From Flavobacteriaceae bacterium (GTDB taxonomy: Bacteria > Bacteroidota > Bacteroidia > Flavobacteriales > Flavobacteriaceae), in NCBI GenBank assembly GCA_015493405.1, contig WGDF01000077.1, forward strand, positions 1 through 12,508: a stretch of 12,508 nucleotides of DNA. Reading direction: 5' to 3'. Under the pieces are notes generated by a model, which was not told the origin of the DNA, searched no databases, and saw only the letters and a list, made by a program, of their open reading frames with translations. Position numbers and translations under genes: made by a program. How positions within the stretch are numbered: position 1 is the stretch's first letter; every line of letters begins with the position of its first letter. This document shows positions 1 to 12,508 of the stretch, piece after piece.

Positions 1-1838
1 ATATGCGTTTTCCGGCTTTTTCTGAAACCAACGGTAAATATGACGGAAAATACGCTTTCTTTTCAGATGGCGCTAATGCCCGTATTGCACTTTTAGGTTT
101 AGACGATTTTGAAACCAAACAGGTTTTGTCTAACACCATTTTAAAAAGTGTTTTCCCCGAAGCTGTCGTTACGCCTAATACGGAATATGTCGTGCAATCA
201 GGACAATTTCCGATGCCTTGGGACAGTAAAGTAACCGATTTGTCTAAAGCTAGAAACGGCATTACATTCTGGAAAGTACACCGTATCGAAAAAGAAGGTG
301 AACACAAAGGCCGTATCTTAAAAGAAGAATCTTTTACAGTTGAAATGCCCCCTTATACATATGACTATAATGACATAGGTAAAGGTGTTTCTGACGGTTT
401 AATGTTTGGTTTGGCTTTTAATGATGGTAAAACTTATGTTTATACATTAAATTATAAGAAAGCTGCCGGTTTGAAAAAAGTAAGAACCACTTTCTCTCAA
501 TATATGCCTTTAGATGCCGTTAAAAAAGCCGGTGTTTTAAGTTTTGTTGAATTACCTGCTTCTGCCAATATGGTTAAAGTATCTCCTGACGGTAAATATG
601 TCGTGGTAGCAGCTGATAATGTTTTAGTCTTAGATGCCGCTAAAATGAAAGCTAATTTGGGTAAAAACATTAAAGCAGATGCGGTTATGCACAAGTCTAT
701 TCCTATTGGAAAAGATGTAGTTGATGTTACCTTTGACTACCGAAAAAATGTAGCTTATGCTTCTGCTCACGATGATAGTAAAATCGTCCGTTTCAATTAT
801 GAAGACGGTAAAAAATTAGATGAAGTTAAATTAGGCTTTAAACCTTCTTATATCAACACACCTCAAGGTCTTTCTGTTGCACCGCATTCCAATTATTTGG
901 TTGCTGTCGACAAAGAAGCTTATTTGCCCAATTTGCCTAAAACCGGCCCGATTCGTCCCAGTGTGCAACACTTAATCGATATTTCTGCCGATAATGAAAT
1001 GGTTGATACTTATACCATGACATTGCCGCAAGCTAACGTTTACGGTAATATTGCTATTTTAAGAACGACTATCAAACCGATTATACGTTATCCTACGGGA
1101 ACTAACTCTCGTACCGGTGAACCTTCACCGTTCCGTGCTGTTGCCGGTCAAGAAAAAATAGAACGTAAAGGTAACCGTGTACACGTATTCGGAACTTTGA
1201 TTCGTTCGCATATTACGCCTGAAATCGTTGAAGTTAATGAGGGTGATATCGTTTCATTCCATATGACCAACTTAGAACGAGCTGAAGATGAAACCCACGG
1301 ATTTACCGTTGATACTTATGGTAAACATGGTTCATTTGAACCCGGAAAAACCGCTTCTTTAACTTTTGTAGCCAACAAAGCCGGTGTATTCCCTTACTAT
1401 TGTACAGAATTTTGTTCTGCTTTACACTTGGAAATGGAAGGTATCTTATTGGTTAAACCTAAAGGTTATAAAGGCAATACGAGCGATGACTTAAGTGTAA
1501 AATTAACCAAAGAAGAATTGGCTAAATACAAAAAAGATTACGAAAACAAACTTAAAGTTATCAAACAAACAGGGGATGTTATCGGTAGTGTAGTAGATTA
1601 CTTAAAGAAAAATCACTACGAAAAATATCCTTACGTAAAAGCTTTGGTTGCTGATGCATTTGACCAGTTGAATAAAGGTAAAATGGCTGAAGATAAGTAT
1701 AAAAAATATGCTAAAGAAGGTAAATGGAAACAAGCTTTCTTATGGGCAGAACAATATTTCCAATATCAAGTTAAAACAGCTGATGTTGGTTTGAGAGCCA
1801 AAAAACTTTTGGGTGAAAAATTGGCTAAAGAAGAATAA
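1..1838 (+). CDS. nosZ: NosZ paralogue with CuA only: CuZ histidines all lost (5' end outside window)
   Basis: This is a nitrous oxide reductase homologue with its N-terminus beyond the window; the ATG at 3 is internal, because alignment to the next gene places about 150 residues upstream. Numbering is from that Met. Residues 2 to about 370 are a propeller-type domain aligning with the downstream NosZ. The seven CuZ histidine positions hold R2, F3, F51, N189, D241, about Y283, and V346 or Y347, so no CuZ cluster is expected. The C-terminal cupredoxin domain (about 385-487) is intact for CuA: H432 in THGFTV, then C467, E469 (backbone ligand position), C471, H475 and M478 in CTEFCSALHLEM. Residues 490-611 form a lysine-rich, probably helical tail without a haem motif. 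The frame is open throughout, so this is not a decayed pseudogene by appearance. Stop to next ATG is 11 nt, which suggests co-translation. Inferred role: electron-entry subunit paired with the next protein in the periplasm. Confidence 0.9.
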   Translation, partial: MRFPAFSETNGKYDGKYAFFSDGANARIALLGLDDFETKQVLSNTILKSVFPEAVVTPNTEYVVQSGQFPMPWDSKVTDLSKARNGITFWKVHRIEKEGEHKGRILKEESFTVEMPPYTYDYNDIGKGVSDGLMFGLAFNDGKTYVYTLNYKKAAGLKKVRTTFSQYMPLDAVKKAGVLSFVELPASANMVKVSPDGKYVVVAADNVLVLDAAKMKANLGKNIKADAVMHKSIPIGKDVVDVTFDYRKNVAYASAHDDSKIVRFNYEDGKKLDEVKLGFKPSYINTPQGLSVAPHSNYLVAVDKEAYLPNLPKTGPIRPSVQHLIDISADNEMVDTYTMTLPQANVYGNIAILRTTIKPIIRYPTGTNSRTGEPSPFRAVAGQEKIERKGNRVHVFGTLIRSHITPEIVEVNEGDIVSFHMTNLERAEDETHGFTVDTYGKHGSFEPGKTASLTFVANKAGVFPYYCTEFCSALHLEMEGILLVKPKGYKGNTSDDLSVKLTKEELAKYKKDYENKLKVIKQTGDVIGSVVDYLKKNHYEKYPYVKALVADAFDQLNKGKMAEDKYKKYAKEGKWKQAFLWAEQYFQYQVKTADVGLRAKKLLGEKLAKEE

Positions 1839-1849
1839 TTAACAGAAAA

Positions 1850-4294
1850 ATGTATAAAAATTCTAAATTGAATTGGATTATGAAAAATATAAAAAATAAA
1901 TCTTGGTTGCGTCTTGTAAGTGCAACCATGTCCTTGATGCTCGTTGCTTTATTTGCCATTAGTTGTGGTGGTAACGGCGAAAAAGGCAAAAAAGCCGGCG
2001 CTACAGGAGATGTAGGTGCGCCGAGAGGAAAGGAATCTTTCCAAGACATTGTTAAACGTAGAGGTTTGAATGAAGATGATGTTTTAGCAGCCGTTAAAAC
2101 ATATACTCCCGATAATGTAAAAGACGAAGCAATTACTGCTAACTCCGGTGGGCAAGAAGGAAATATGCCTTCTTATGTGGTGCCTTCTATGCGTATGGTT
2201 AAATATATCCCGATTAATACCCGTCAACCCTATGCCGGTTACGGTTATTCCGAAGAAACCTATAATTTGATGAAAGATGGTTTTATTGATGGCACTCAAA
2301 TTCTTTGGGGTGACACCCACCATCCGGGCTTCTCTGAAAAAAATGGCGACTATGACGGTAAATGGATGGTCATCAATGATAAAGCCAACCCCAGAGTTTA
2401 TGTAGTCAATTTAAAAGACTGGTATGTAAAACAAGTGGTTCAAAATCCGATTTTCCGTTCTGATCACGGTGGTTGTTTCTTTACGCCTAATTCCGAATAT
2501 TTTATGGAAGCCTGTCAATATCCTGCTCCTTTCGATAGAAAATATTATCCTTTGACTGAAGCCAATTATCACAAATATTGGAGAGGTGGGGTAACCTATT
2601 GGAAATTTAATGATGATAAAGGAACGATCAATATGGACAAATCCTTTACTTTCGAATTTCCACCTTATACGCAAGATTTATCCGATGCCGGTAAAGAAAA
2701 ATCCTATGGTTGGGGCTTTACCAACTCATTCTGTTCCGAAGTTTATATCGGAGGTATTATGAGAGGTCGGCCACCGTTTGAAGCCGGTTGTTCTTCCAGA
2801 GACGTCGATTATTTACACGTTACCAACTGGAAAAAAGCCGAAGCTTTATTTAAAGCCGGTAAAATTGGTCAAAAAGTGGTTAATGGTATGCATGTCATTA
2901 CCATTCCCGAATCTATCAAATATGGTTTATTATACTTGATTCCCGAACCTAAATCACCTCACGGTGTGGATGTGAACCCTAGTGGTGAATATATCGTCGT
3001 TGCCGGTAAATTGGATTCTCATGCTTGGGTTTATAAGTTTGACAAAATTATGAAAGCCATTAAAGATAAAAACTTTGAAGGTAAAGATGAATATGGTATT
3101 CCTATTATTCCTTTGAAAGCTGCTCTTCATGGTAGTGTCGAAGTTGGTTTAGGACCCCTTCACAACCAATATGACAGTAGAGACGGCGTCATTTATACCT
3201 CTATTTATGTTGATTCACGGGTAACCAAATGGAATTACAAAACTTTGAAAGTTTTAGATTATGTACCGTCACATTATAATATCGGTCACTTGGTATCTTA
3301 TCATGGGGATACCGAAAAACCAAAAGGTAAATATTTGATTGCTTTGAACAAATTGTCTATTGACCGTTTTAATCCGGTTGGTCCTTTACACCCGCAAAAC
3401 CACCAGTTGATAGATATTGCCGCAGAGCATCCCAAATTGATTTATGATTTACCTATTCCTATGGGGGAACCGCATTATACCTTAATGATGGATCGTACTT
3501 ATTATGAAAAAAACAATATGGAAGCTTATCCGGTAGGAACCAATATTGTTACGATGAAAAAATCACCTTATGCAACTGCAGCCGGTGCTGAAAAAATCAG
3601 CGATAAAGGCAATACGGTTGAAGTATTCGGTACCATCAAAGATGGTAAAGTAACGCCTGCTGATATCAGTGCCAAACAAGGACAAGATGTAATCATTCAC
3701 TTGACAAACTTGGGAACCGGTTTATATGATCATTATGTATACGAATTGGTATCTTATGATAAAATGTATCCTTTTGCTCCGGGTGAAACAGCTACGATTA
3801 AATTTAATGCCGAAAAAGCCGGTGTGTATCCGATTGTTATTGATCCGCAAAACAGTCCCAAAAAACGCCAATTGGTCGGTCACTTAAAAGTAAGTTTCGA
3901 TCGCGCTGCTGAAAACAAACGTGCTTTAGCTTATACCAATCGTATTAATTGGGATAATAAGGTACAAGCCTTTAAACCTTCAGCCATTGAGTTGAAAAAT
4001 ATGTTGCCCGGTGAAATTCAATTCTTGAACTATGGTTGTAACGCTTGTCACAAATTCGGTCAACCTTTCAATGGTCCCGATTTGTTAATGGTTCACAAAC
4101 GTAGAAGTGACAAATGGTTAAAAGAATGGATTTTGAATCCTGAATCTAAATACAAAAATCCTGATATTGAAGCTATGCGTCAAACCTTTAAATTGGCTAT
4201 GCCAAATCAACATGTTGATCCTAAAGATGTAGATAAATTGATTGAATATATCAAAGCTAAATCAAATCAGGTTATTAAAGGTATGTCAAAATAA
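1850..4294 (+). CDS. nosZ: NosZ paralogue with CuZ only, fused to C-terminal cytochrome c; CuA ligands lost
   Basis: This is a nitrous oxide reductase (N2O + 2e- + 2H+ to N2 + H2O) of clade II form, 814 aa. The N-terminus has a hydrophobic segment ending in AISC (C39), probably a lipoprotein signal. The Met codon at 1880 is an alternative start giving a more usual 29-residue signal. All seven CuZ histidines are present: H157/H158 (DTHHP), H206 (SDHGG), H371 (SPHGVDV), H438 (GPLHN), H480 (NIGH) and H542 (GEPHY). The cupredoxin-like domain (about 580-680) aligns gap-free with the upstream protein over the CuA loop, but the ligand positions read Y629, I664, N668, K672 and L675, so CuA cannot form. 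A monohaem cytochrome c domain follows (C730-x-x-C733-H734, likely axial M784), as in campylobacterotal NosZ. A terminator follows the gene. Reductase activity therefore probably depends on the upstream CuA-bearing paralogue or on direct haem-to-CuZ transfer; both are inferences. Confidence 0.93.
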   Translation: MYKNSKLNWIMKNIKNKSWLRLVSATMSLMLVALFAISCGGNGEKGKKAGATGDVGAPRGKESFQDIVKRRGLNEDDVLAAVKTYTPDNVKDEAITANSGGQEGNMPSYVVPSMRMVKYIPINTRQPYAGYGYSEETYNLMKDGFIDGTQILWGDTHHPGFSEKNGDYDGKWMVINDKANPRVYVVNLKDWYVKQVVQNPIFRSDHGGCFFTPNSEYFMEACQYPAPFDRKYYPLTEANYHKYWRGGVTYWKFNDDKGTINMDKSFTFEFPPYTQDLSDAGKEKSYGWGFTNSFCSEVYIGGIMRGRPPFEAGCSSRDVDYLHVTNWKKAEALFKAGKIGQKVVNGMHVITIPESIKYGLLYLIPEPKSPHGVDVNPSGEYIVVAGKLDSHAWVYKFDKIMKAIKDKNFEGKDEYGIPIIPLKAALHGSVEVGLGPLHNQYDSRDGVIYTSIYVDSRVTKWNYKTLKVLDYVPSHYNIGHLVSYHGDTEKPKGKYLIALNKLSIDRFNPVGPLHPQNHQLIDIAAEHPKLIYDLPIPMGEPHYTLMMDRTYYEKNNMEAYPVGTNIVTMKKSPYATAAGAEKISDKGNTVEVFGTIKDGKVTPADISAKQGQDVIIHLTNLGTGLYDHYVYELVSYDKMYPFAPGETATIKFNAEKAGVYPIVIDPQNSPKKRQLVGHLKVSFDRAAENKRALAYTNRINWDNKVQAFKPSAIELKNMLPGEIQFLNYGCNACHKFGQPFNGPDLLMVHKRRSDKWLKEWILNPESKYKNPDIEAMRQTFKLAMPNQHVDPKDVDKLIEYIKAKSNQVIKGMSK

Positions 4295-4427: not shown

Positions 4428-5189
4428 ATGAATAATAATGCAAAAAAGTTTAAGCTATTATATATGCTTTTCGGCCTATTGGGCACCGGTTTGGTGGTTG
4501 CTACCTATTTTTTACCGATGTGGTGGGTAGCTTTGCAAAGTATCCAATATCCTAAAACGATGTATCCTAAGGGTATTCGTATAGAATTTAAATACAACGG
4601 TGTTTACAACGGCTGTAAAGGCGTGAGAGAACGGGCTGAATTGGCTGTAGAATCAGGCGCCAACTGTTTAATTGAAATGAATAAAATCAATCACTTTATA
4701 GGTATGTTCCCTATTGTTCAAGGCGTCAATGATGTAGATGAATTGGGGAATCATGTCAGATATCCTGTCTATGCCGGAGATAGTATTCCCAAAGATAAAA
4801 TACCAAGTCAGCTCAAAGTTTTGGATGGCATTATGCGCAATGCACATATTGCTTTCATCCTATTGGGTATATTAGGACTTCTCTTTGTTTTCGTACCTAA
4901 GAAAAAACTATCATGGGCAGCTATCATAACCGCCTTTGCACCATTTTATTTCTTATTGATTTATGTGTATTACCTCTATTGGTACGGCCATCATTTAGGT
5001 TTACACGGAGGCGGTGCTTTTAACGGTATCAAGCCTTTTATGCCGACCGTTTTCGGTGAAGGTAAAGTCGCTCAATTTACAACTATGTCTTATCCTTATC
5101 TTGGATTTTTCATTGGTCTGGCCGGTTTTGTTTTACTCTTATTGGCAGTTAATTTTAAAAATAAATATTTAAAATCTGCCAAACAATAA
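4428..5189 (+). CDS. nosB: NosB-like integral membrane protein of clade II nos clusters
   Basis: This is a 253-aa inner-membrane protein with four predicted membrane segments: about 10-30, 137-156, 161-184 and 223-243. A large periplasmic-type loop (about 31-136) carries two cysteines (C63, C80) and the motif CLIEMNKINHFIGM. A second histidine- and glycine-rich loop (YWYGHHLGLHGGG) follows the third segment. Identification as NosB rests on its place directly between nosZ and nosD and on the four-segment topology; clade II clusters typically carry such a gene here. Its biochemical role is not established. The C63/C80 pair and the clustered histidines would suit metal or redox work, but that is speculation. 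It has its own promoter 24-55 nt upstream and is followed by a 144-nt gap to nosD. Confidence 0.7.
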   Translation: MNNNAKKFKLLYMLFGLLGTGLVVATYFLPMWWVALQSIQYPKTMYPKGIRIEFKYNGVYNGCKGVRERAELAVESGANCLIEMNKINHFIGMFPIVQGVNDVDELGNHVRYPVYAGDSIPKDKIPSQLKVLDGIMRNAHIAFILLGILGLLFVFVPKKKLSWAAIITAFAPFYFLLIYVYYLYWYGHHLGLHGGGAFNGIKPFMPTVFGEGKVAQFTTMSYPYLGFFIGLAGFVLLLLAVNFKNKYLKSAKQ

Positions 5190-5333: not shown

Positions 5334-6680
5334 ATGCGTTATTTCTTTACTTTTATTTTTATCTATTTTTGGTCTTTAAGCCCTCTTTTGGCTCAAGTGG
5401 ATCAAAGTTACCATCCCGGCTTGATTCACCCGATTCAAGGCTCGGAAGATCGGGCGCATATGCAAAATATACAACCGCTCATTGATGCTTTAAAACCAGG
5501 GGATACACTCAAGTTAAAACCCGGTTTTTATTATGGTCCGGCACATATCAAAACGCCTAACGTTACCATTGACGGACAAGGGAAAGCAACTGTTTCCGGG
5601 CGTAATTTAAAATCTGTTTTTTACATTGAAGCCAATGACGTCAGTATTAGAAATTTGCATATTATAGAATCCGGTGGGTCTCCCGATCAGATTGATTGTG
5701 CGGTTAAAATAACCAAATCTAATAATTTTGAAATTATCAATAATAAGATTGAAGAGACACTGTTTGGAATTGATGTGTTTTGGTCACAAGGAGGCTTAAT
5801 CAAACATAATGATATTACTTCGATTGCTCAAAATCCTAAGGGGTTAAAAGGCGATGCTATTCGACTTTGGTATTCCAAACATAATTTGGTGCAAGAAAAT
5901 TATTGGCATCAAGTCCGAGATATGGTTGTCTGGTATTCATCTGATAATCAATTTATTGGCAACCGCGGTATCGATAACCGATATAGCATTCACTTTATGT
6001 ATTCGCATCGGAATCAAATATCACACAATCATTTTTCCAATTCTTCAGTCGGTATATTTTTAATGTATAGTGAAAAAACTATTATGAATAATAATTTGAT
6101 AGAAGGCACACAAGGCGTTACCGGTATGTGTTTGGGGATGAAAGAAACGTCATCTAATCAAATTATTGATAATAAATTTTTATATTCTGCACGAGGTATC
6201 TATATTGATGTTTCGCCTTTCGTGCCTTGGAAAACGAATACTATTTCGGGTAATGAAATTGCTTTTTGCAATACGGCCGTAGAGTTTTTAAAAGATCAGG
6301 AAGGCAATACTTTTACCGAAAATATGTTTCACGATAATTTGACGCAAGTCTTTATTCAAGGCGGAGGAACTGCCAATCGCAACAGATGGATTGGTAATTA
6401 TTGGGGCGATTATGCCGGTTTTGATCGTAATGGAGATAATATCGGTGATTTTCCCTATCGCATTTATGAATACCATGCACGCTTATGGCGTTTTGAGCCG
6501 AATATTAAGTTTTTTTATGGCGCACCCATTTTGTCTATCTTAGATTATTTGGAAAAATTGGCGCCTTTTTCAAAACCGCAATTTGTTTTGAAAGATCCCA
6601 AACCTATTTTTAATTTGGAAATTTTTAAGAAAAAACGCAAAGCGGAATGGAAGCCGGTAAAATTAGATCAAGATAAGTAA
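5334..6680 (+). CDS. nosD: NosD, periplasmic beta-helix protein for CuZ assembly
   Basis: This is a 448-aa protein with a cleavable signal peptide (about 1-20, ending LLAQ). The body is a right-handed parallel beta-helix (CASH/PbH1 repeats), seen as successive N-x-I-x-x-N-x-I/F turns from about 60 to 340. Near residues 365-385 it carries the family signature WIGNYWGDYAGFDRNGDNIGD. NosD partners the NosFY ABC transporter and is required to mature the CuZ copper-sulfide cluster of NosZ. The length is normal for the family. A C-terminal lysine-rich stretch (about 430-448) may include a membrane-proximal segment near residue 400. The ATG is preceded by AGAGG about 9 nt upstream, one of the few purine-rich sites in the window. 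The stop is followed after one base by the dUTPase start, so the two are probably co-translated. Confidence 0.95.
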   Translation: MRYFFTFIFIYFWSLSPLLAQVDQSYHPGLIHPIQGSEDRAHMQNIQPLIDALKPGDTLKLKPGFYYGPAHIKTPNVTIDGQGKATVSGRNLKSVFYIEANDVSIRNLHIIESGGSPDQIDCAVKITKSNNFEIINNKIEETLFGIDVFWSQGGLIKHNDITSIAQNPKGLKGDAIRLWYSKHNLVQENYWHQVRDMVVWYSSDNQFIGNRGIDNRYSIHFMYSHRNQISHNHFSNSSVGIFLMYSEKTIMNNNLIEGTQGVTGMCLGMKETSSNQIIDNKFLYSARGIYIDVSPFVPWKTNTISGNEIAFCNTAVEFLKDQEGNTFTENMFHDNLTQVFIQGGGTANRNRWIGNYWGDYAGFDRNGDNIGDFPYRIYEYHARLWRFEPNIKFFYGAPILSILDYLEKLAPFSKPQFVLKDPKPIFNLEIFKKKRKAEWKPVKLDQDK

Positions 6681-6681
6681 A

Positions 6682-7371
6682 ATGAATAGAATCAAACAAA
6701 TGCTTTTGTTGCAACAGCAACTCAATGATGCTACCGGAGGTAAAGACTGGGAAAACGGCATGACCAATAAAGGCAAGCCGATTGACTGGCGGCGGTGCAT
6801 TTATTTGGAAACAGCTGAGTTGGTCGATTCATATCCCTGGAAGCATTGGAAAAATATAGATGCCAACCCTGATTATGAGAATATCAAGATTGAAATTGTA
6901 GATATTTGGCATTTTGTAATGTCCGAAGCATTGCGGGATTATAAAGTGAACGGAAAAGGAGATATTCAGACTTTGTCGCAAGATATTGTACAATTGTCGC
7001 ATTATCAAGATTTTGCATCTAATTCAATACCCAAGCAGTTGGGCGTTTTTGAGCAAATTGCATGGGTTGAGGTTTTTATGAAAACCCTGTTTACGTCTGA
7101 TAAAATATTATGGTGGGTAGATAATTTTCTTAAAATGTCCGCTTGTTTACAGGTCAATTTAGGAGAATTGTACAAGTTGTATGTCGGAAAGAATATATTG
7201 AACCAATTCAGACAAGATCACGGATACAAAGAAGGAAAATATATCAAAGAATGGAACGGTGTAGAAGATAACGTCGTGATGCAGCAAATTTTGGCAAAGC
7301 ATTCGGATATCAATCCGGAGAAATTGTATGATTTGTTGGAAGGAGCTTATACTAAAGTAGCAAGTGTCTAG
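6682..7371 (+). CDS. Dimeric-type dUTP diphosphatase (dUTPase_2, all-alpha NTP pyrophosphatase)
   Basis: This is a 229-aa cytosolic enzyme hydrolysing dUTP (and dUDP) to dUMP. It belongs to the dimeric, MazG-related all-alpha dUTPases, not the common trimeric Dut family. The metal-binding motifs are E43-x-x-E46 (in WRRCIYLETAELVDS) and E71-x-x-D74 (in IEIVDIWHF). The substrate-side segments WENGMTNKGK near the N-terminus and YVGKNILNQFRQDHGYKEG near residues 172-190 are typical. The pattern closely recalls campylobacterotal dUTPases as I remember them. There is no signal peptide. It starts one base after the nosD stop, so it is almost certainly in the nos transcript, yet it has no evident role in N2O reduction. 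A passenger gene, possibly transferred, is the best explanation. The family call is secure; the origin is inferred. Confidence 0.9.
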   Translation: MNRIKQMLLLQQQLNDATGGKDWENGMTNKGKPIDWRRCIYLETAELVDSYPWKHWKNIDANPDYENIKIEIVDIWHFVMSEALRDYKVNGKGDIQTLSQDIVQLSHYQDFASNSIPKQLGVFEQIAWVEVFMKTLFTSDKILWWVDNFLKMSACLQVNLGELYKLYVGKNILNQFRQDHGYKEGKYIKEWNGVEDNVVMQQILAKHSDINPEKLYDLLEGAYTKVASV

Positions 7372-7446
7372 TGCGAAGTGTGATTAGTGTGAAGTGGAAA
7401 GTGAAAAAGGAGTTGTCATTCTTGTCAGGATGATTAAAAGGACGTT

Positions 7447-7537
7447 TGTCATTTCGAAGGAGGAACGACTGAGAAATCTATAATTATGGTAATCAAGAGA
7501 TTTCTCCTCACTCGTGCCTCGCTTGGTCGAAATGACA
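7447..7537. repeat. REP-like 91-bp palindromic element, copy 1
   Basis: The outer arms TGTCATTTCGA and TCGAAATGACA are exact reverse complements, as are the inner AGAAATCT and AGATTTCT. The segments between them pair imperfectly because the right arm is 7 nt longer. Such TGTCATTTCGA...AGAAATCT elements are, from memory, widespread intergenic repeats in Bacteroidota. Confidence 0.75.
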
Positions 7538-7575
7538 GGAGTTGTCATTTTTGTCAGGATGATTAAAAGGACGTT

Positions 7576-7666
7576 TGTCATTTCGAAGGAGGAACGACTG
7601 AGAAATCTATAATTATGGTAATCAAGGGATTTCTCCTCACTCGTGCCTCGCTTGTTCGAAATGACA
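7576..7666. repeat. REP-like 91-bp palindromic element, copy 2
   Basis: This has the same structure as the copy 129 bp upstream. The outer arms begin TGTCATTTCGA and end TCGAAATGACA. Confidence 0.75.
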
Positions 7667-7672
7667 TCAGGC

Positions 7673-7755
7673 ATCAAATAATCAAATAATCAAATAACCA
7701 GTATAACCAGTATAACCAAATAACCGATTAACCAGATAACCATATAACCAATATA
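7673..7755. repeat. Ten-unit 8-9 nt direct repeat array ending 3 nt before nosG
   Basis: It reads as three ATCAAATA, two ACCAGTATA, then ACCAAATA, ACCGATTA, ACCAGATA, ACCATATA and ACCAATATA. The nosG ATG follows after AGT, so the array occupies the whole ribosome-binding region. No Shine-Dalgarno sequence is present. Confidence 0.8.
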
Positions 7756-7758
7756 AGT

Positions 7759-8586
7759 ATGGCAACAAATAATTACAAAATTAACAGAAGGCAATTCCTA
7801 AAGGCCAGTGCATCGGCAGTTGTGTCATTAGCAGTAGTGGGAAGTGCTGCTTACTACTTTAAAGACAAAAGTAGTTTAAGAGAAAAAGGTTTTTTACGCC
7901 CCCCGGGTGCTAGAGCCGAGAAAGATTTTTTATTTGCCTGTATCAAATGCGGGCTGTGTGTACAAATATGCCCCGTTCATGCGATTAAATTAGCAGATTG
8001 GAATGACGGTCTGTCTTATGGTACGCCATTTATCGATCCGAATTTACAAGCATGTGATTTTTCTTGTGATGCGATTCAATGTGCCGAAACCTGCCCTACG
8101 GCGGCTATTGATTTTCAAATCTTTAAACATGCCGGAAACAAGGCGGTTGCACCCTTGTATAAGAAATATCCCAACGGCGATTTTCCCCGTGATATGAACC
8201 CCTTTAAAGTTCAAATCATGGCGATGAAACGTGCGGACAAAATAGGATTGGCAGAAATTCCTAATCCATCTCAATGTTTGGCCTATAGTGGTCACGGATA
8301 TAAGGGAACACTGGGGCATGGCAATAAAGGCGAATTAAGACCGCCTGAAAAAGAAGAAAGAATTCTTATTCAGGACACGGAAGTGAATAGAGAAATTTGT
8401 GACTTGTGTGTTATATATTGCCCGCTTGGCCAAGAAGCTATTGAATTAGAAAAAATAGAAGATGGTAAATTTTTACCCAAAGTTAAAGATGGCTGTGTCG
8501 GTTGTGGCGTCTGCCAAATGGTTTGTCCAACCCATCCGGAAGCTATTGTTGTGAAGCCTGTGGATAAAAAACCGCAATTTGCTTAA
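7759..8586 (+). CDS. nosG: NosG, NapG-type four-cluster ferredoxin
   Basis: This is a 275-aa periplasmic iron-sulfur protein related to NapG. The N-terminus has a twin-arginine-type signal (INRRQFLKAS, R10/R11, then a hydrophobic run to about residue 32). The cysteine groups are C61-x2-C64-x2-C67-x3-C71; C99, C103, C108 and C112; C214-x2-C217-x3-C221, with C173 a possible fourth ligand; and C246-x2-C249-x2-C252-x3-C256. That is enough for four [4Fe-4S] clusters. In NapGH/NosGH systems this protein passes electrons from the membrane quinol-oxidising partner outward to periplasmic cytochromes. The partner nosH begins 21 nt downstream. NapG of nitrate reductase is the alternative identity, but the placement among nos genes and the absence of nap genes favour NosG. 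Confidence 0.85.
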   Translation: MATNNYKINRRQFLKASASAVVSLAVVGSAAYYFKDKSSLREKGFLRPPGARAEKDFLFACIKCGLCVQICPVHAIKLADWNDGLSYGTPFIDPNLQACDFSCDAIQCAETCPTAAIDFQIFKHAGNKAVAPLYKKYPNGDFPRDMNPFKVQIMAMKRADKIGLAEIPNPSQCLAYSGHGYKGTLGHGNKGELRPPEKEERILIQDTEVNREICDLCVIYCPLGQEAIELEKIEDGKFLPKVKDGCVGCGVCQMVCPTHPEAIVVKPVDKKPQFA

Positions 8587-8607: not shown

Positions 8608-9615
8608 ATGTCATTTTTATACGATTTTATTACCAGAGATAAAAAAAGGAAGCCGCTTCCTGCCAAAGATAGATCACAATTACCGTTTGCCCGTTTAGGC
8701 TTTAGCTTTAAAGAATGGCATGACGGCCATGAAAATAAACACAAATGGCGCAACCGCCGTTGGGCATTTTTGATATTTATCAATCTGCTTTTTGTGATTT
8801 CTTTCGCTTTGGATTTGTCGGTTTTGGAGGGCTCATTAAGTGGTTCCCGTTTAATCGGTATTTATCTGATGGATCCGTTTAACTCGGCACAACAATTGGT
8901 CATTGATTCCAAATTGGGTTATTTGGCCATATTAACGACCAATTTCTGGATCGGCTTTTTTGTCATTATGACCTTTTACTGGCTTCTGGGAGGACGGGCA
9001 TTTTGCTCTTGGGTTTGTCCTTACCATTTCTTTGCCGAAATGGGTGAGCGCGCGCGTGCCTATTTTATCAAAAAGAAAAAAATCAGAGATAAAACTTATG
9101 ATATTACCGTTAAGTATGTATTTTGGATTGGTTTTTTGTTTTTGGCTTTTTTGACCAAAGAATTGGTCTTTGAAGATTTGAATCCGGTTGGTATTTTGTC
9201 CCGTTCTATGATTTACGGACCCGGTTTAGCTTTAATATGGATAGTCGCTTTATTGCTTTTTGAAGTTTTTGGTATCAAACGTTTTTGGTGTCGTTATGTC
9301 TGTCCTATCGGCACAACTTATAGTTTTATAGGTGATGTTTCTCCTATCGGTGTCAAGTTTGATTTGGATAAATGCGGTTATTGTACCGATTGTCAAGATG
9401 TCTGTTTGGTGCCCCACGAATTATGGTTTGTTAAGAAAGGCGCGGCTACTAAAGAGGTGCATTTTACCGGTGGTGATTGTACCAAATGCGGTTTATGTAT
9501 AGATGTTTGTTACGGAGAGGCCTTATCCTTTGGGTTTAAAGCTCCAAGTTATATATTGGGTCACGTAGAAGAAAAAGTTGAATTGCATCCTTTAGAACAA
9601 CCGGATCAAAAATAA
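8608..9615 (+). CDS. nosH: NosH, NapH-type membrane polyferredoxin (quinol dehydrogenase)
   Basis: This is a 335-aa inner-membrane protein with about four hydrophobic segments (roughly 52-70, 105-130, 168-185 and 205-225). It has the two C-x3-CP motifs characteristic of NapH, C133SWVCP and C228RYVCP. Two [4Fe-4S] ferredoxin motifs follow near the C-terminus: C256-x2-C259-x2-C262-x3-C266 and C291-x2-C294-x2-C297-x3-C301. NapH/NosH proteins oxidise menaquinol together with the G subunit. The final cluster ends CYGEAL rather than the usual CP, a common variation. The gene is 21 nt after nosG and they are surely co-transcribed. No separate nosC cytochrome genes follow it. Confidence 0.87.
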   Translation: MSFLYDFITRDKKRKPLPAKDRSQLPFARLGFSFKEWHDGHENKHKWRNRRWAFLIFINLLFVISFALDLSVLEGSLSGSRLIGIYLMDPFNSAQQLVIDSKLGYLAILTTNFWIGFFVIMTFYWLLGGRAFCSWVCPYHFFAEMGERARAYFIKKKKIRDKTYDITVKYVFWIGFLFLAFLTKELVFEDLNPVGILSRSMIYGPGLALIWIVALLLFEVFGIKRFWCRYVCPIGTTYSFIGDVSPIGVKFDLDKCGYCTDCQDVCLVPHELWFVKKGAATKEVHFTGGDCTKCGLCIDVCYGEALSFGFKAPSYILGHVEEKVELHPLEQPDQK

Positions 9616-9768: not shown

Positions 9769-10419
9769 ATGGATACATTAATCGACATAAAAAATCTTTC
9801 CAAGACCTTTAATAAAGTAAAGGTAATTAAGGATTTAACCACACAATTTAAGGCAGGCGACCGGATTGCTCTTATTGGACAAAACGGTGCCGGAAAGACG
9901 ACTTTAATACGCTGTATTTTAGGTCTTTATACTTATGAGGGCTATTTAAGAGTCTTAGGAAAAAATGCCCGGACAGAAAGAGAATTGATTTTGCAAAATG
10001 TCGGTTTTGTGCCGCAATTACCACCGCCACTCAAAATGACGGTTTCAGAAATTATGGATTTCTTTTCGGTGATTACTAAAACAGACCGGGCAAAATTTGT
10101 CAAAATAGCCAATGATCTAAAATTGGATATCAGTAAGCATTTAAATAAACCCTTTTTGAAATTATCAGGCGGGATGAAACAAAAGTTATTGGTCTCTTTA
10201 GCCTTAGCTCGTAATCCTAAAATATTATTGATGGATGAACCTTCTGCAAATTTAGATCCGGAAGCACGGGTAGTTTTATTCAATTATCTGAAAGCTTTAC
10301 CCAAAGATACGTTAATGATCTTGAGCAGTCACCGCGTTGATGAAATAGAAGATATGGTCAACCGCTTAATTGAAATGGATTTGGGAGAAATTGTTGTGGA
10401 TGAATTAATGGATGTATAA
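9769..10419 (+). CDS. nosF: NosF, ABC transporter ATPase
   Basis: This is a 216-aa cytosolic ATPase that powers the NosFY transporter supplying the CuZ assembly system, probably with a sulfur species. The Walker A motif is GQNGAGKTT (37-45), the ABC signature LSGGMKQKL begins at L132, Walker B is ILLMDEP (about 150-156) with the D-loop ANLDP, and the H-loop is SSHR (about 185-188). It is shorter than proteobacterial NosF (roughly 300 aa) because the C-terminal extension is missing; the nucleotide-binding domain itself is complete. Its membrane partner NosY lies beyond nosL. The order F-L-Y differs from the commoner F-Y-L. Confidence 0.93.
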   Translation: MDTLIDIKNLSKTFNKVKVIKDLTTQFKAGDRIALIGQNGAGKTTLIRCILGLYTYEGYLRVLGKNARTERELILQNVGFVPQLPPPLKMTVSEIMDFFSVITKTDRAKFVKIANDLKLDISKHLNKPFLKLSGGMKQKLLVSLALARNPKILLMDEPSANLDPEARVVLFNYLKALPKDTLMILSSHRVDEIEDMVNRLIEMDLGEIVVDELMDV

Positions 10420-10478: not shown

Positions 10479-11009
10479 ATGAAAAAACTAGCATTAATTA
10501 CCGTTTTATTCTTGGCTACTTTATCAAGTTGTAATAAAAAGGTGGATTTCAGTCCACGAAAAATTAATTATGATCGCGATGTTTGTTACGTTTGCAAAAT
10601 GGGTTTGGATGAACCCAAATATAATTTGCAAGCTATAAATGAGCATGGTGATGTCCGGTGGTATGATGACATCGGCTGCTTAGCTGAAGATATGAGAGAT
10701 GGCAATTTTAACAAATGGAAAGGTCAAAAATATAAAATCTGGATTGGCGATGCTGATACAGGCCAATGGTTAGATGCCGAAAAAGCTTGGTACCGTTATG
10801 GTGACCGCACGCCAATGGGTTATGGTTATGGCGCGGTTAAAGATAAATCTGCGACTGCCCAATATGATTTCAAAACGGTTATTCAACGTATAGATGAAGG
10901 CAAAACCAAACGTGCAGATTTTATCAAGAAAAAGAAAATGTCAGTCAGTGGTAAGGATGCAGCATCAGGTAGTATGAAATGTGCCCCCGGAAAATGCGGA
11001 GGTCAATAA
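10479..11009 (+). CDS. nosL: NosL, outer-membrane/periplasmic copper-chaperone lipoprotein
   Basis: This is a 176-aa lipoprotein; the lipobox LSSC puts the lipidated cysteine at C18. The NosL core follows, with C36-x2-C39-x-M41 (DVCYVCKMGL), the Cu(I)-binding motif region, and MGYGYGAV near 112-119. NosL delivers Cu(I) for CuZ assembly through NosD. The C-terminus adds a lysine-rich stretch (KKKKM, about 152) and a tail MKCAPGKCGGQ with two more cysteines (C168, C173) that could form a second copper site. That tail is not part of the core NosL fold, and its role is inferred. The gene lies between nosF and nosY, 12 nt before the latter. Confidence 0.93.
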   Translation: MKKLALITVLFLATLSSCNKKVDFSPRKINYDRDVCYVCKMGLDEPKYNLQAINEHGDVRWYDDIGCLAEDMRDGNFNKWKGQKYKIWIGDADTGQWLDAEKAWYRYGDRTPMGYGYGAVKDKSATAQYDFKTVIQRIDEGKTKRADFIKKKKMSVSGKDAASGSMKCAPGKCGGQ

Positions 11010-11021
11010 AAAAAGAAAATT

Positions 11022-11852
11022 ATGAATAAGACTTTAGTTCAAGTATTAAAAAACGATATCAAGCAAAATTTGCGTTCCAAATCTTTTTGGATATACAGTT
11101 TGCTACTCGGTAGTTTTGTAGCTGTTATGTTTGCTACGGGGATTACCGAATCTCAAGTGGTCGGATTTGTCGGTTTAAGCCGGTTGATGATTACTTTTAT
11201 GCAGGTCAGTATGGTTATTTTGCCCATTTATGTTTTGATTTCAACAGTCAGGTCGGTTGTAGGAGATAGAGAAAATGGGGTTTTGGAATATTATCTGTCC
11301 TTACCCATTTCATTTAGCAGTTATTATTGGGGCAAATTTTTAAGCCGTTTTTTTGTCATCTATGTGCCTGTTTTTATCGCCTTTTTGGGGGCGGCACTTT
11401 GGGGTTTGGTAGTGCAATTAGATGTCCCCTGGGATTTATTTATCCTATATAGCGGTTTATTGGCCATGATGGTTTTTTTCTTTTTGGGTTTAAGCATGTT
11501 TTTATCGACTGTTTCCAAATCACAAGAGATGGCTTTGAGCTCAGCCTTTATTATTTGGTTGTTTCTAGTTGCTTTTATGGATATTTTATTGATTGGAATG
11601 ATGCTTAAAATGCGTGTTAATCCGGATGTTGTTATCATCAGCAGTTTGTTTAATCCTTTGCAAGTATTTAGAACAGGCAGTTTGATTTTATTTGACCCTA
11701 AATTAACCGTGATGGGCCCCGTTTCTTATTATATTTTAGATACAGTCAGTCGCTCGACTTTTATTATATTTTCATTGGTTTACCCTTTTGTCATGGGGCT
11801 TATCTTTTCTTTTTTCGGAGCCAGATATTTCAAACATCACGATGTGGTATAG
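11022..11852 (+). CDS. nosY: NosY, ABC-2 type permease
   Basis: This is a 276-aa inner-membrane permease, the partner of NosF. The N-terminus (VQVLKNDIKQNLRSKSFW) is the usual cytoplasmic elbow of ABC-2 permeases. Six hydrophobic segments follow, at about 22-42, 54-76, 105-127, 140-160, 166-190 and 247-268. The motif GDRENGVLEYYLSLPIS after the second segment is the conserved cytoplasmic coupling loop of this family. Length and topology are normal. It is the last recognisable nos gene; a short hairpin begins 3 nt after its stop. Confidence 0.92.
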   Translation: MNKTLVQVLKNDIKQNLRSKSFWIYSLLLGSFVAVMFATGITESQVVGFVGLSRLMITFMQVSMVILPIYVLISTVRSVVGDRENGVLEYYLSLPISFSSYYWGKFLSRFFVIYVPVFIAFLGAALWGLVVQLDVPWDLFILYSGLLAMMVFFFLGLSMFLSTVSKSQEMALSSAFIIWLFLVAFMDILLIGMMLKMRVNPDVVIISSLFNPLQVFRTGSLILFDPKLTVMGPVSYYILDTVSRSTFIIFSLVYPFVMGLIFSFFGARYFKHHDVV

Positions 11853-12044: not shown

Positions 12045-12508
12045 ATGAAACGATATATAATTATAATTACCGGATTTATAGGATTGACCTTACTATCTTG
12101 TGGAGGCAAGTTCGGTGGACAAACAGCAACAGGTACTGAATCGGACACGACCAATATTCCCGAATTAATCAATTTTTTGGAGCAGCCTCAAATAGATTCT
12201 ATTGTCAATATAGATACGGGCAAAAAGCGACTTAAAGGGATTAAAAGCGTGCCGGGAGACGGCGATGATTTTAGGAAAGACAATTTAGACCGGATTTATT
12301 GGAATGGAGAAAGTGTTAAAAATGCCGATTTCAGAGGCGCCTCTTTCCGTTCGGCACGGTGTTTAGGTGCCAATTTGAGTAATGGTGATTTTAGAGCGGC
12401 AGACATTCGGTGGACTTGGTTTAACGGTGGTGATTTACATCATAGCAATTTTGATCAAGCTCGTTTATTTCATGTTCATGTCAATTATGCCAATTTGAAT
12501 AACTCTAC
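12045..12508 (+). CDS. Pentapeptide-repeat lipoprotein (3' end outside window)
   Basis: The open frame from the ATG at 12045 runs to the window edge (154 codons and two bases). The N-terminus MKRYIIIITGFIGLTLLSCGG is a lipoprotein signal with lipobox LLSC (C19). A polar linker runs to about residue 85. Pentapeptide repeats of the A(D/N)(L/F)xx type then begin (ADFRG, ASFRS, ANLSN, GDFRA, ADIRW, SNFDQ, ARLFH, ANLNN), predicting a quadrilateral beta-helix on the periplasmic face of a membrane. It lies 192 nt past nosY, behind a hairpin and repeat fragment, so it may not belong to the nos unit. Function is unknown; pentapeptide repeats alone do not indicate one. Confidence 0.8.
   Translation, partial: MKRYIIIITGFIGLTLLSCGGKFGGQTATGTESDTTNIPELINFLEQPQIDSIVNIDTGKKRLKGIKSVPGDGDDFRKDNLDRIYWNGESVKNADFRGASFRSARCLGANLSNGDFRAADIRWTWFNGGDLHHSNFDQARLFHVHVNYANLNNS

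Follow-up and report, generated by a model that had tools for sequence, protein, structure and literature searches.

Can a nitrous oxide reductase (NosZ) be split over two polypeptides, one carrying its CuA centre and the other its CuZ centre? The question is raised by two adjacent NosZ paralogues, ORF1 and ORF2, at the start of a 12,508-nucleotide stretch of DNA. This stretch, the whole of which is referred to here as the window, comprises the first 12,508 bases of contig C77, from base 1. The source genome is 2.07 Mb long in 395 contigs, 91% complete and 3.8% contaminated. An original prediction, made from the letters of the window, was that ORF1 keeps the ligands of CuA and has lost those of CuZ, that ORF2 has done the opposite, and that a duplication had been followed by specialization into an obligate heterodimer. 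NosZ is otherwise known as a homodimer. In the passages of PMC11573801 on the Marinobacter enzyme, a homodimer is described in which CuZ adjoins the CuA centre of the other protomer. In the abstract of PMC13122619, reduction of N2O to N2 is ascribed to NosZ alone among known enzymes. If the two chains do form one enzyme, each centre could be mutated on one chain with the other untouched, which would open several questions to direct testing: do the active sites of the homodimer act independently or in alternation, is the CuA centre of the partner the sole way for electrons to enter CuZ, and how is the copper-sulfur cluster loaded? Surveys of nosZ could also count half an enzyme as a whole one, the relatives of the other half being named cytochrome.

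Locus and gene layout

The features of the window are listed below (aa, amino acids; borders marked "about" in ORF1 are approximate).

3..1838, + strand: ORF1, CuA-only NosZ chain, 611 aa, 5' end cut by the contig edge
about 3-1157, + strand: dead CuZ propeller of ORF1
about 1158-1463, + strand: live CuA cupredoxin of ORF1
1296..1436, + strand: CuA ligands H432, C467, C471, H475 and M478, with the Phe gate F470 and the backbone-carbonyl position E469 (by alignment)
about 1464-1835, + strand: helical tail of ORF1
1850..4294, + strand: ORF2, CuZ-only NosZ chain, 814 aa, with a lipoprotein-like signal (C39) and live CuZ propeller
2318..3475, + strand: CuZ histidines H157, H158, H206, H371, H438, H480 and H542 of ORF2, with conduit Lys501 and Glu540
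2720..2785, + strand: blade IV stretch of ORF2, residues 291-312 (by alignment position)
about 3596-3901, + strand: dead cupredoxin of ORF2
about 3992-4291, + strand: C-terminal cytochrome c of ORF2
4037..4051, + strand: haem c motif CNACH of ORF2, C730-H734
4428..5189, + strand: membrane protein in the NosB position, conserved downstream of the pair
5334..6680, + strand: NosD maturation protein (family match above cut-off)
7759..8586, + strand: NapG-like ferredoxin in the NosG position (below curated cut-offs)
8608..9615, + strand: NapH-like ferredoxin in the NosH position (above the TIGR02163 cut-off)
9769..10419, + strand: ABC ATPase in the NosF position (Pfam)
10479..11009, + strand: NosL-like protein (CxxCKM motif and position)
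11022..11852, + strand: ABC-2 permease in the NosY position (Pfam)

Both reading frames had been predicted to be intact and 11 nt apart. The distance of 11 nt was borne out; ORF2 spans 1850-4294, and ORF1 is truncated at its 5' end. ORF1 very likely does not begin at the ATG of position 3, because the window opens at base 1 of the contig and P0001, an ORF1 homologue of 750 aa (90% identical), extends further toward the N-terminus. P0001 has 139 residues ahead of the equivalent methionine (M140), and by comparison with it ORF1 is short of about 139 N-terminal residues.

Copper ligands

Ligand columns were fixed using 14 complete NosZ from the same taxonomic family, together with alignments to solved NosZ. 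The 14 are those of 29 loci (L004-L032) that have a long frame on the strand read. ORF1 has a complete CuA set (H432, C467, C471, H475 and M478), and its seven CuZ histidine columns are occupied by R2, F3, F51, N189, D241, Y283 and Y347. ORF2 has a complete CuZ set (H157, H158, H206, H371, H438, H480 and H542), and Y629, I664, N668, K672 and L675 occupy its CuA columns. All twelve ligand residues are covered by ORF1 and ORF2 jointly, and each chain alone holds one set. Every position named in the original prediction was thus right, the last two in ORF1 being Y283 and Y347. The predicted offset of 197 between the chains is constant over the CuA columns.

Homologue sets were composed of the best 120 matches per ORF (240 in total, of 6481 and 7973 matches). 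All seven CuZ histidines are present in 120 of the 120 best ORF2 homologues, and no CuA ligand is left in 117 of these, the Met being kept in three. All five CuA ligands are present in 118 of the 120 best ORF1 homologues (P0040 and P0067 are the exceptions), with column counts of H 120, C 120, C 118, H 119 and M 119. Conservation at this level is more than would be expected by chance. The CuZ columns of the same 120 ORF1 homologues read, in order, R (116 sequences), F/Y, Y/F, variable, D (120), variable and Y (120); one histidine persists at one of these columns in ten sequences. The replacements by Asp and Tyr, each fixed in 120 of 120, suggest that the dead CuZ sites of CuA-only chains have been remodelled and are not drifting.

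We regard it as highly probable that ORF1 and ORF2 provide complementary half-sites of one NosZ, likely an obligate heterodimer with a single working CuA-CuZ pair.

Distribution of the gene pair

Contigs from one genome per species (84,980 species) were scanned using 32 ORF1 relatives as queries. The scan matched patterns in the CuA loop and tail, and the best 80 of 561 loci were kept. Note that lone CuZ-only genes are outside the reach of a scan anchored in this way. CuA-only genes were found at 45 of the kept loci, and a CuZ-only frame lies directly downstream on the same strand at 45 of these 45 (among the best 80 of 561). Of the 45 downstream frames, 44 can be read at least as far as the third CuZ histidine. 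At L075 the CuZ-only frame ends too soon and the CuA-only frame is in two pieces. The first ATG of the CuZ-only frame lies -50 to +100 nt from the stop of the CuA-only frame (44 loci). When the window is included, all CuA ligands are present in 46/46 CuA-only chains, 7/46 of which have a histidine at the sixth CuZ column; CuZ-only chains have histidines at CuZ columns 1-3 in 45/45 cases and at columns 4-7 in 41/41 readable cases. A search of genomes for the same adjacent pair had been proposed as a check, and an assembly chimera had been named as one way in which the prediction might fail. The pair was found at every CuA-only locus among those kept, and a chimera is rejected on account of its presence at 45 other loci.

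The CuA-only loci derive from Flavobacteriales, Lutibacter, Saprospiraceae, Bacteroidales, Lentimicrobiaceae, Chlorobiota and Melioribacteraceae, all of them metagenome-assembled genomes (MAGs) or uncultured. The pair loci fall in Bacteroidota and Chlorobiota/Ignavibacteriota (among the best 80 of 561). The other 35 kept loci, mostly from Proteobacteria, contain a single NosZ that has all twelve ligands and is without a CXXCH motif; the helical tail of ORF1 is 42% identical (median) to the tails of these 35 complete NosZ. Two CuA-only/CuZ-only pairs are present in some MAGs (L043 and L046 in one MAG; G110, G140 and G155), some of them cut by contig ends.

Within the genus, matches were obtained in 11 of 13 genomes, counting the source genome; the two genomes that gave none have a completeness of 68% and 95%. 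A CuA-only gene followed by a CuZ-only gene was found at ten congener loci, own included. G154, a congener that is 95% complete, is without the pair and is counted against the heterodimer. The pair is also present in the 99%-complete genomes G147 and G400. In an order-level sample it was found in 2/296 genomes, own included, and outside the source genome it was found neither in a sample of 99 family genomes nor in a sample of 246 phylum genomes. The nine best other matches in the phylum sample are complete NosZ. The distribution of the trait is patchy. For the best other Bacteroidota matches (L123-L127), an in-frame TAA was rejected as a candidate feature, being the ordinary end of a complete NosZ, and a gap pattern was rejected as an alignment artefact.

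Search for a complete NosZ in the same genomes

A canonical third NosZ had been named as evidence that would speak against the prediction. A search of the source genome for a third NosZ using TIGR04246 gave two matches, both in the window. No further complete NosZ was found in 11 relatives that are 83-99% complete (ten congeners and G400, which is 99% complete and belongs to another family), where no TIGR04246 match exceeds 670 bits. The search was also made in 44 other pair-bearing genomes of unstated completeness, leaving out L046, which is from the same MAG as L043. No complete NosZ above 900 bits was found in 41 of the 44. Several genomes among the congeners, the 11 relatives and these 44 are the same assembly under two handles (e.g. 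G100 and G144), so the counts of these sets overlap. The remaining three (G112, G117 and G143) have a further match above 900 bits that by its score resembles a complete NosZ, and these are counted against the heterodimer. In G103, another CuZ-like frame is located close to the start of a contig, and partial TIGR04246 matches occur in G119, G134 and G138. No further NosZ frame was found near the pair in the pair loci, some of which include 10 kb of upstream sequence. A third NosZ is accordingly not upheld as an objection by the genome search, by the 11 relatives or by 41 of the 44 pair-bearing genomes.

Selection and phylogeny

Values for dN/dS were derived by the Nei-Gojobori method for the window versus eight of the 45 loci. 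Whole-gene values range from 0.075 to 0.125 for ORF1 and from 0.069 to 0.123 for ORF2, where those for the four nearest relatives (dS 0.64-0.96) should be considered the most reliable, dS being >1 for more distant relatives. Relaxed selection (dN/dS near 1) in one of the genes, another ground on which the prediction might have failed, is rejected on these values. Within ORF1, dN/dS is 0.025-0.046 for the cupredoxin, 0.073-0.127 for the dead propeller and 0.104-0.172 for the tail. Within ORF2 it is 0.044-0.096 for the live propeller and 0.10-0.19 for the dead cupredoxin; the cytochrome c domain (0.057-0.080, measurable in five relatives) is constrained to the same degree as the live propeller. 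Purifying selection thus acts on both genes, and in 8/8 relatives the live copper domain is under stronger constraint than the dead one.

Median pairwise identities for the cupredoxin and the propeller are 90% and 60% in the CuA chain, and 65% and 74% in the CuZ chain. The 35 complete NosZ are without this asymmetry (74.5% for the cupredoxin and 74.0% for the propeller). When the identity matrices of the two chains were compared over 45 pairs, a Mantel r of 0.83 was obtained, and 0/2000 permutations were as high. The two genes diversify together.

A tree was made from 19 of the 45 pair loci plus the window, 14 of the 35 complete tailed NosZ and 6 of the 14 family NosZ. The CuA-only and the CuZ-only chains (20 rows each) group into one clade apiece, both with 100/100 support, and each clade is set on a long branch amid the complete tailed NosZ. 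A sister relation between the CuA-only and CuZ-only clades is neither supported nor rejected by the tree (p-AU 0.408), with which an origin of ORF1 and ORF2 from one another by tandem duplication would be compatible. Of the predicted course of events, the duplication thus remains at that level (compatible), and the heterodimer is supported by the division of gate, conduit and clamp described below. That the heterodimer assembles and is active is what we infer from the sequences.

Residues acting across the subunit boundary

According to passages of PMC11573801, access to the N2O site on CuZ is governed by F617 and M623, the conduit between CuA and CuZ is made up of F617, E488 and K450, and the propeller of one protomer is clamped to the partner's cupredoxin by a Ca-binding loop in blade IV. 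The Phe gate is present in 119/119 readable sequences among the best ORF1 homologues versus 0/120 of the best ORF2 homologues, and at the pair loci plus the window in 46/46 CuA-only chains versus 0/39 readable CuZ-only chains. The conduit Glu is found in 120/120 of the best ORF2 homologues, and Asn occupies the same column in 120/120 of the best ORF1 homologues; at the loci plus the window, the column is Glu in 41/41 readable CuZ-only chains and Asn in 46/46 CuA-only chains. The conduit Lys is retained in both chain types and therefore does not discriminate between them. With the Phe only on the CuA chain and the Glu only on the CuZ chain, both are present only when a CuA-only chain faces a CuZ-only chain.

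The blade IV stretch is 22 residues long in 120/120 of the best ORF2 homologues and three residues long in 120/120 of the best ORF1 homologues. Its marker Glu is present in 42/42 readable CuZ-only chains and in 35/35 complete tailed NosZ, and the stretch is deleted in 46/46 CuA-only chains. All 14 of the complete family NosZ have 15 residues here, with a gap in the column of the marker Glu. The stretch is taken as the equivalent of the Ca-binding clamp loop in solved NosZ, which we presume from its position in the alignment and from the known Ca ligands.

Both domains are retained in each chain, and CuA domains are able to pass electrons. The two proteins could on these grounds form separate homodimers, with the CuA-only protein docking transiently, as an electron carrier, on a homodimer of the CuZ-only protein. 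However, in a homodimer of the latter kind CuZ would face a partner that has neither the Phe gate nor the CuA ligands, and the Phe, the Glu and the blade IV element of the boundary are split between the chains. Furthermore, a free carrier needs no full dead propeller, yet the CuA-only chains keep one at a dN/dS of about 0.1. Separate homodimers are therefore considered improbable, although they fare best among the alternatives to the heterodimer.

Haem c, export signals and structure models

The haem c motif CXXCH is present in all 120 of the best CuZ-only homologues (one copy in 94 and two in 26), and was found in 0/120 of the best CuA-only homologues and in 0/35 related complete NosZ. Haem c is located on the chain with the dead cupredoxin, which is counted against the heterodimer. 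The motif would suit a CuZ-only protein that works alone and is fed by its own haem c, with the CuA-only protein used for another purpose such as copper storage or regulation. Set against this are the adjacency of the pair in 45/45 CuA-only loci (among the best 80 of 561) and its co-diversification, the cupredoxin of the CuA-only chain, whose median identity of 90% is the highest among the four copper domains compared, and the fixation of CuA ligands and gate Phe in CuA-only chains. We consider a self-sufficient CuZ-only protein very unlikely. Decaying duplicates or an assembly artefact, as might be suspected from the cut of ORF1 at the contig edge and from the CuA-only frame in two pieces at L075, are scarcely credible given a dN/dS of about 0.1 in both genes and the occurrence of the same pair at 45 further loci and in G147 and G400, both 99% complete.

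A second haem c motif is located in a C-terminal extension of some CuZ-only chains of about 900 aa (e.g. L043-L045). A lipobox-like start, as judged by a simple pattern, is present in 113/120 of the best CuZ-only versus 0/120 of the best CuA-only homologues, which suggests that the complex would be tethered through the CuZ chain.

AlphaFold2 models were of single chains. The CuZ-only model (mean pLDDT 74.8) matches solved NosZ with TM scores of 0.80-0.83 by target length (among the 50 matches listed). The CuA-only model, made for P0001, is too poor to use (mean pLDDT 63.7) and is counted against the heterodimer; its best matches are NosZ, with TM scores of 0.51-0.54. The solved structures matched here are presumably of the ordinary one-chain kind.

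Proposed mechanism of the heterodimer

In the heterodimer, both chains would be exported, the CuA-only chain (A) via a plain signal peptide and the CuZ-only chain (B) as a lipoprotein. They would pair head-to-tail as in the known homodimer, which would place the CuA of ORF1 beside the CuZ of ORF2. On chain A, CuA would receive the electrons, for which the haem c of chain B is a possible donor. Their onward path to CuZ would lead through the Phe of A and the Glu and Lys of B, and N2O would be reduced to N2 at CuZ. The opposite face, at which the dead propeller of A meets the dead cupredoxin of B, would act as scaffold only. Chain B would be the only one to receive a copper-sulfur cluster from NosD, NosF, NosY and NosL.

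It is also probable, with slightly less confidence than for the complementary half-sites themselves, that the pair represents a distinct class of N2O reductase: an obligate heterodimer, inherited as a unit of two genes, in which a single CuA-CuZ interface is active and the other interface is an inert pseudo-interface. This class would serve many Bacteroidota and Chlorobiota/Ignavibacteriota as their only N2O reductase, and would have been overlooked through database naming (CuZ-only as complete NosZ, CuA-only as "cytochrome C").

Relation to known NosZ

The Sec-dependent NosZ model TIGR04246 (cut-off 625 bits) accepts the CuZ-only chain, which scores 650 bits. The CuA-only chain falls below the same cut-off with 320 bits for the truncated gene, as do its full-length relatives with 387-473 bits. 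Assignment to clade I TAT NosZ (TIGR04244) was rejected (159 and 223 bits versus a cut-off of 625), as was assignment to clade III lactonase-type L-NosZ (NF052460; 61 and 106.5 bits versus a cut-off of 700), to which both chains have distant homology. In public databases, several CuA-only relatives are named "cytochrome C" (NCBI) and others "nitrous-oxide reductase" (JGI). The pair may have been overlooked because its CuZ-only member passes as NosZ and several relatives of its CuA-only member are named "cytochrome C".

The pair has in common with clade II Sec-dependent NosZ homology over both domains, the CuZ and CuA ligand sets taken jointly, and an operon with NosD, an ABC transporter and NapG/H-type ferredoxins. 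It differs in that clade II NosZ is a homodimer with both metal sites on one chain, whereas here each chain has one site and the other is replaced. A C-terminal haem c is shared with the Wolinella-type clade II NosZ described in passages of PMC8301774, where the haem domain is proposed to pass electrons on to the enzyme's CuA; in the pair, it is the chain without CuA that bears the haem.

Literature searches of openly licensed PMC papers, preprints excluded, gave no title or abstract on a bacterial NosZ that is split or heterodimeric. The nearest prior report found, PMC10936187, is that of the CuA-only "nosZ-like" genes of DPANN archaea, which like ORF1 encode a CuA-bearing NosZ-like protein without CuZ. 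As stated there, the DPANN proteins branch between Cox2 and clade II NosZ and have weak HMM scores. In two DPANN MAGs, a protein with five conserved histidines that groups with clade II NosZ is encoded directly upstream; most DPANN MAGs are without this neighbour, and complementation with a single gene gave no significant N2O consumption. Compared with the DPANN genes, the order of the genes here is reversed, the pair is made up of two long NosZ paralogues, none of the seven CuZ histidines is missing, and the two genes are paired in every CuA-only locus (among the best 80 of 561).

Flanking genes

The window carries a clade II nos operon, with NosD and the NapH-type ferredoxin above cut-off and the ABC ATPase and permease matched by Pfam. 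The membrane protein at 4428-5189 has no Pfam or NCBIfam match, and a relative of it follows the pair at 31/31 loci that have >650 nt past the CuZ-only gene (L075 aside). It occupies the position of NosB in the clade II operon order. The protein at 10479..11009 likewise has no family match and is presumed to be NosL-like from its CxxCKM motif and its position. Gene order is alike in most loci with enough flanking sequence; L055 deviates beyond the NosB-like gene.

A dUTPase gene is located inside the operon at 6682-7371, between nosD and the NapG-like gene. Among L033-L077, a counterpart was matched only at L035 (67% identical, same place). Two tandem copies of a 129-bp unit, 97% alike, lie at 7408-7666 in the gap before the NapG-like gene, and are followed by about ten copies of CAAATAAC at 7675-7756. 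A frame at 12045-12506, open at the end of the window, encodes pentapeptide-like repeats after a lipoprotein-like start, and matches to it were found downstream of the permease gene in several loci.
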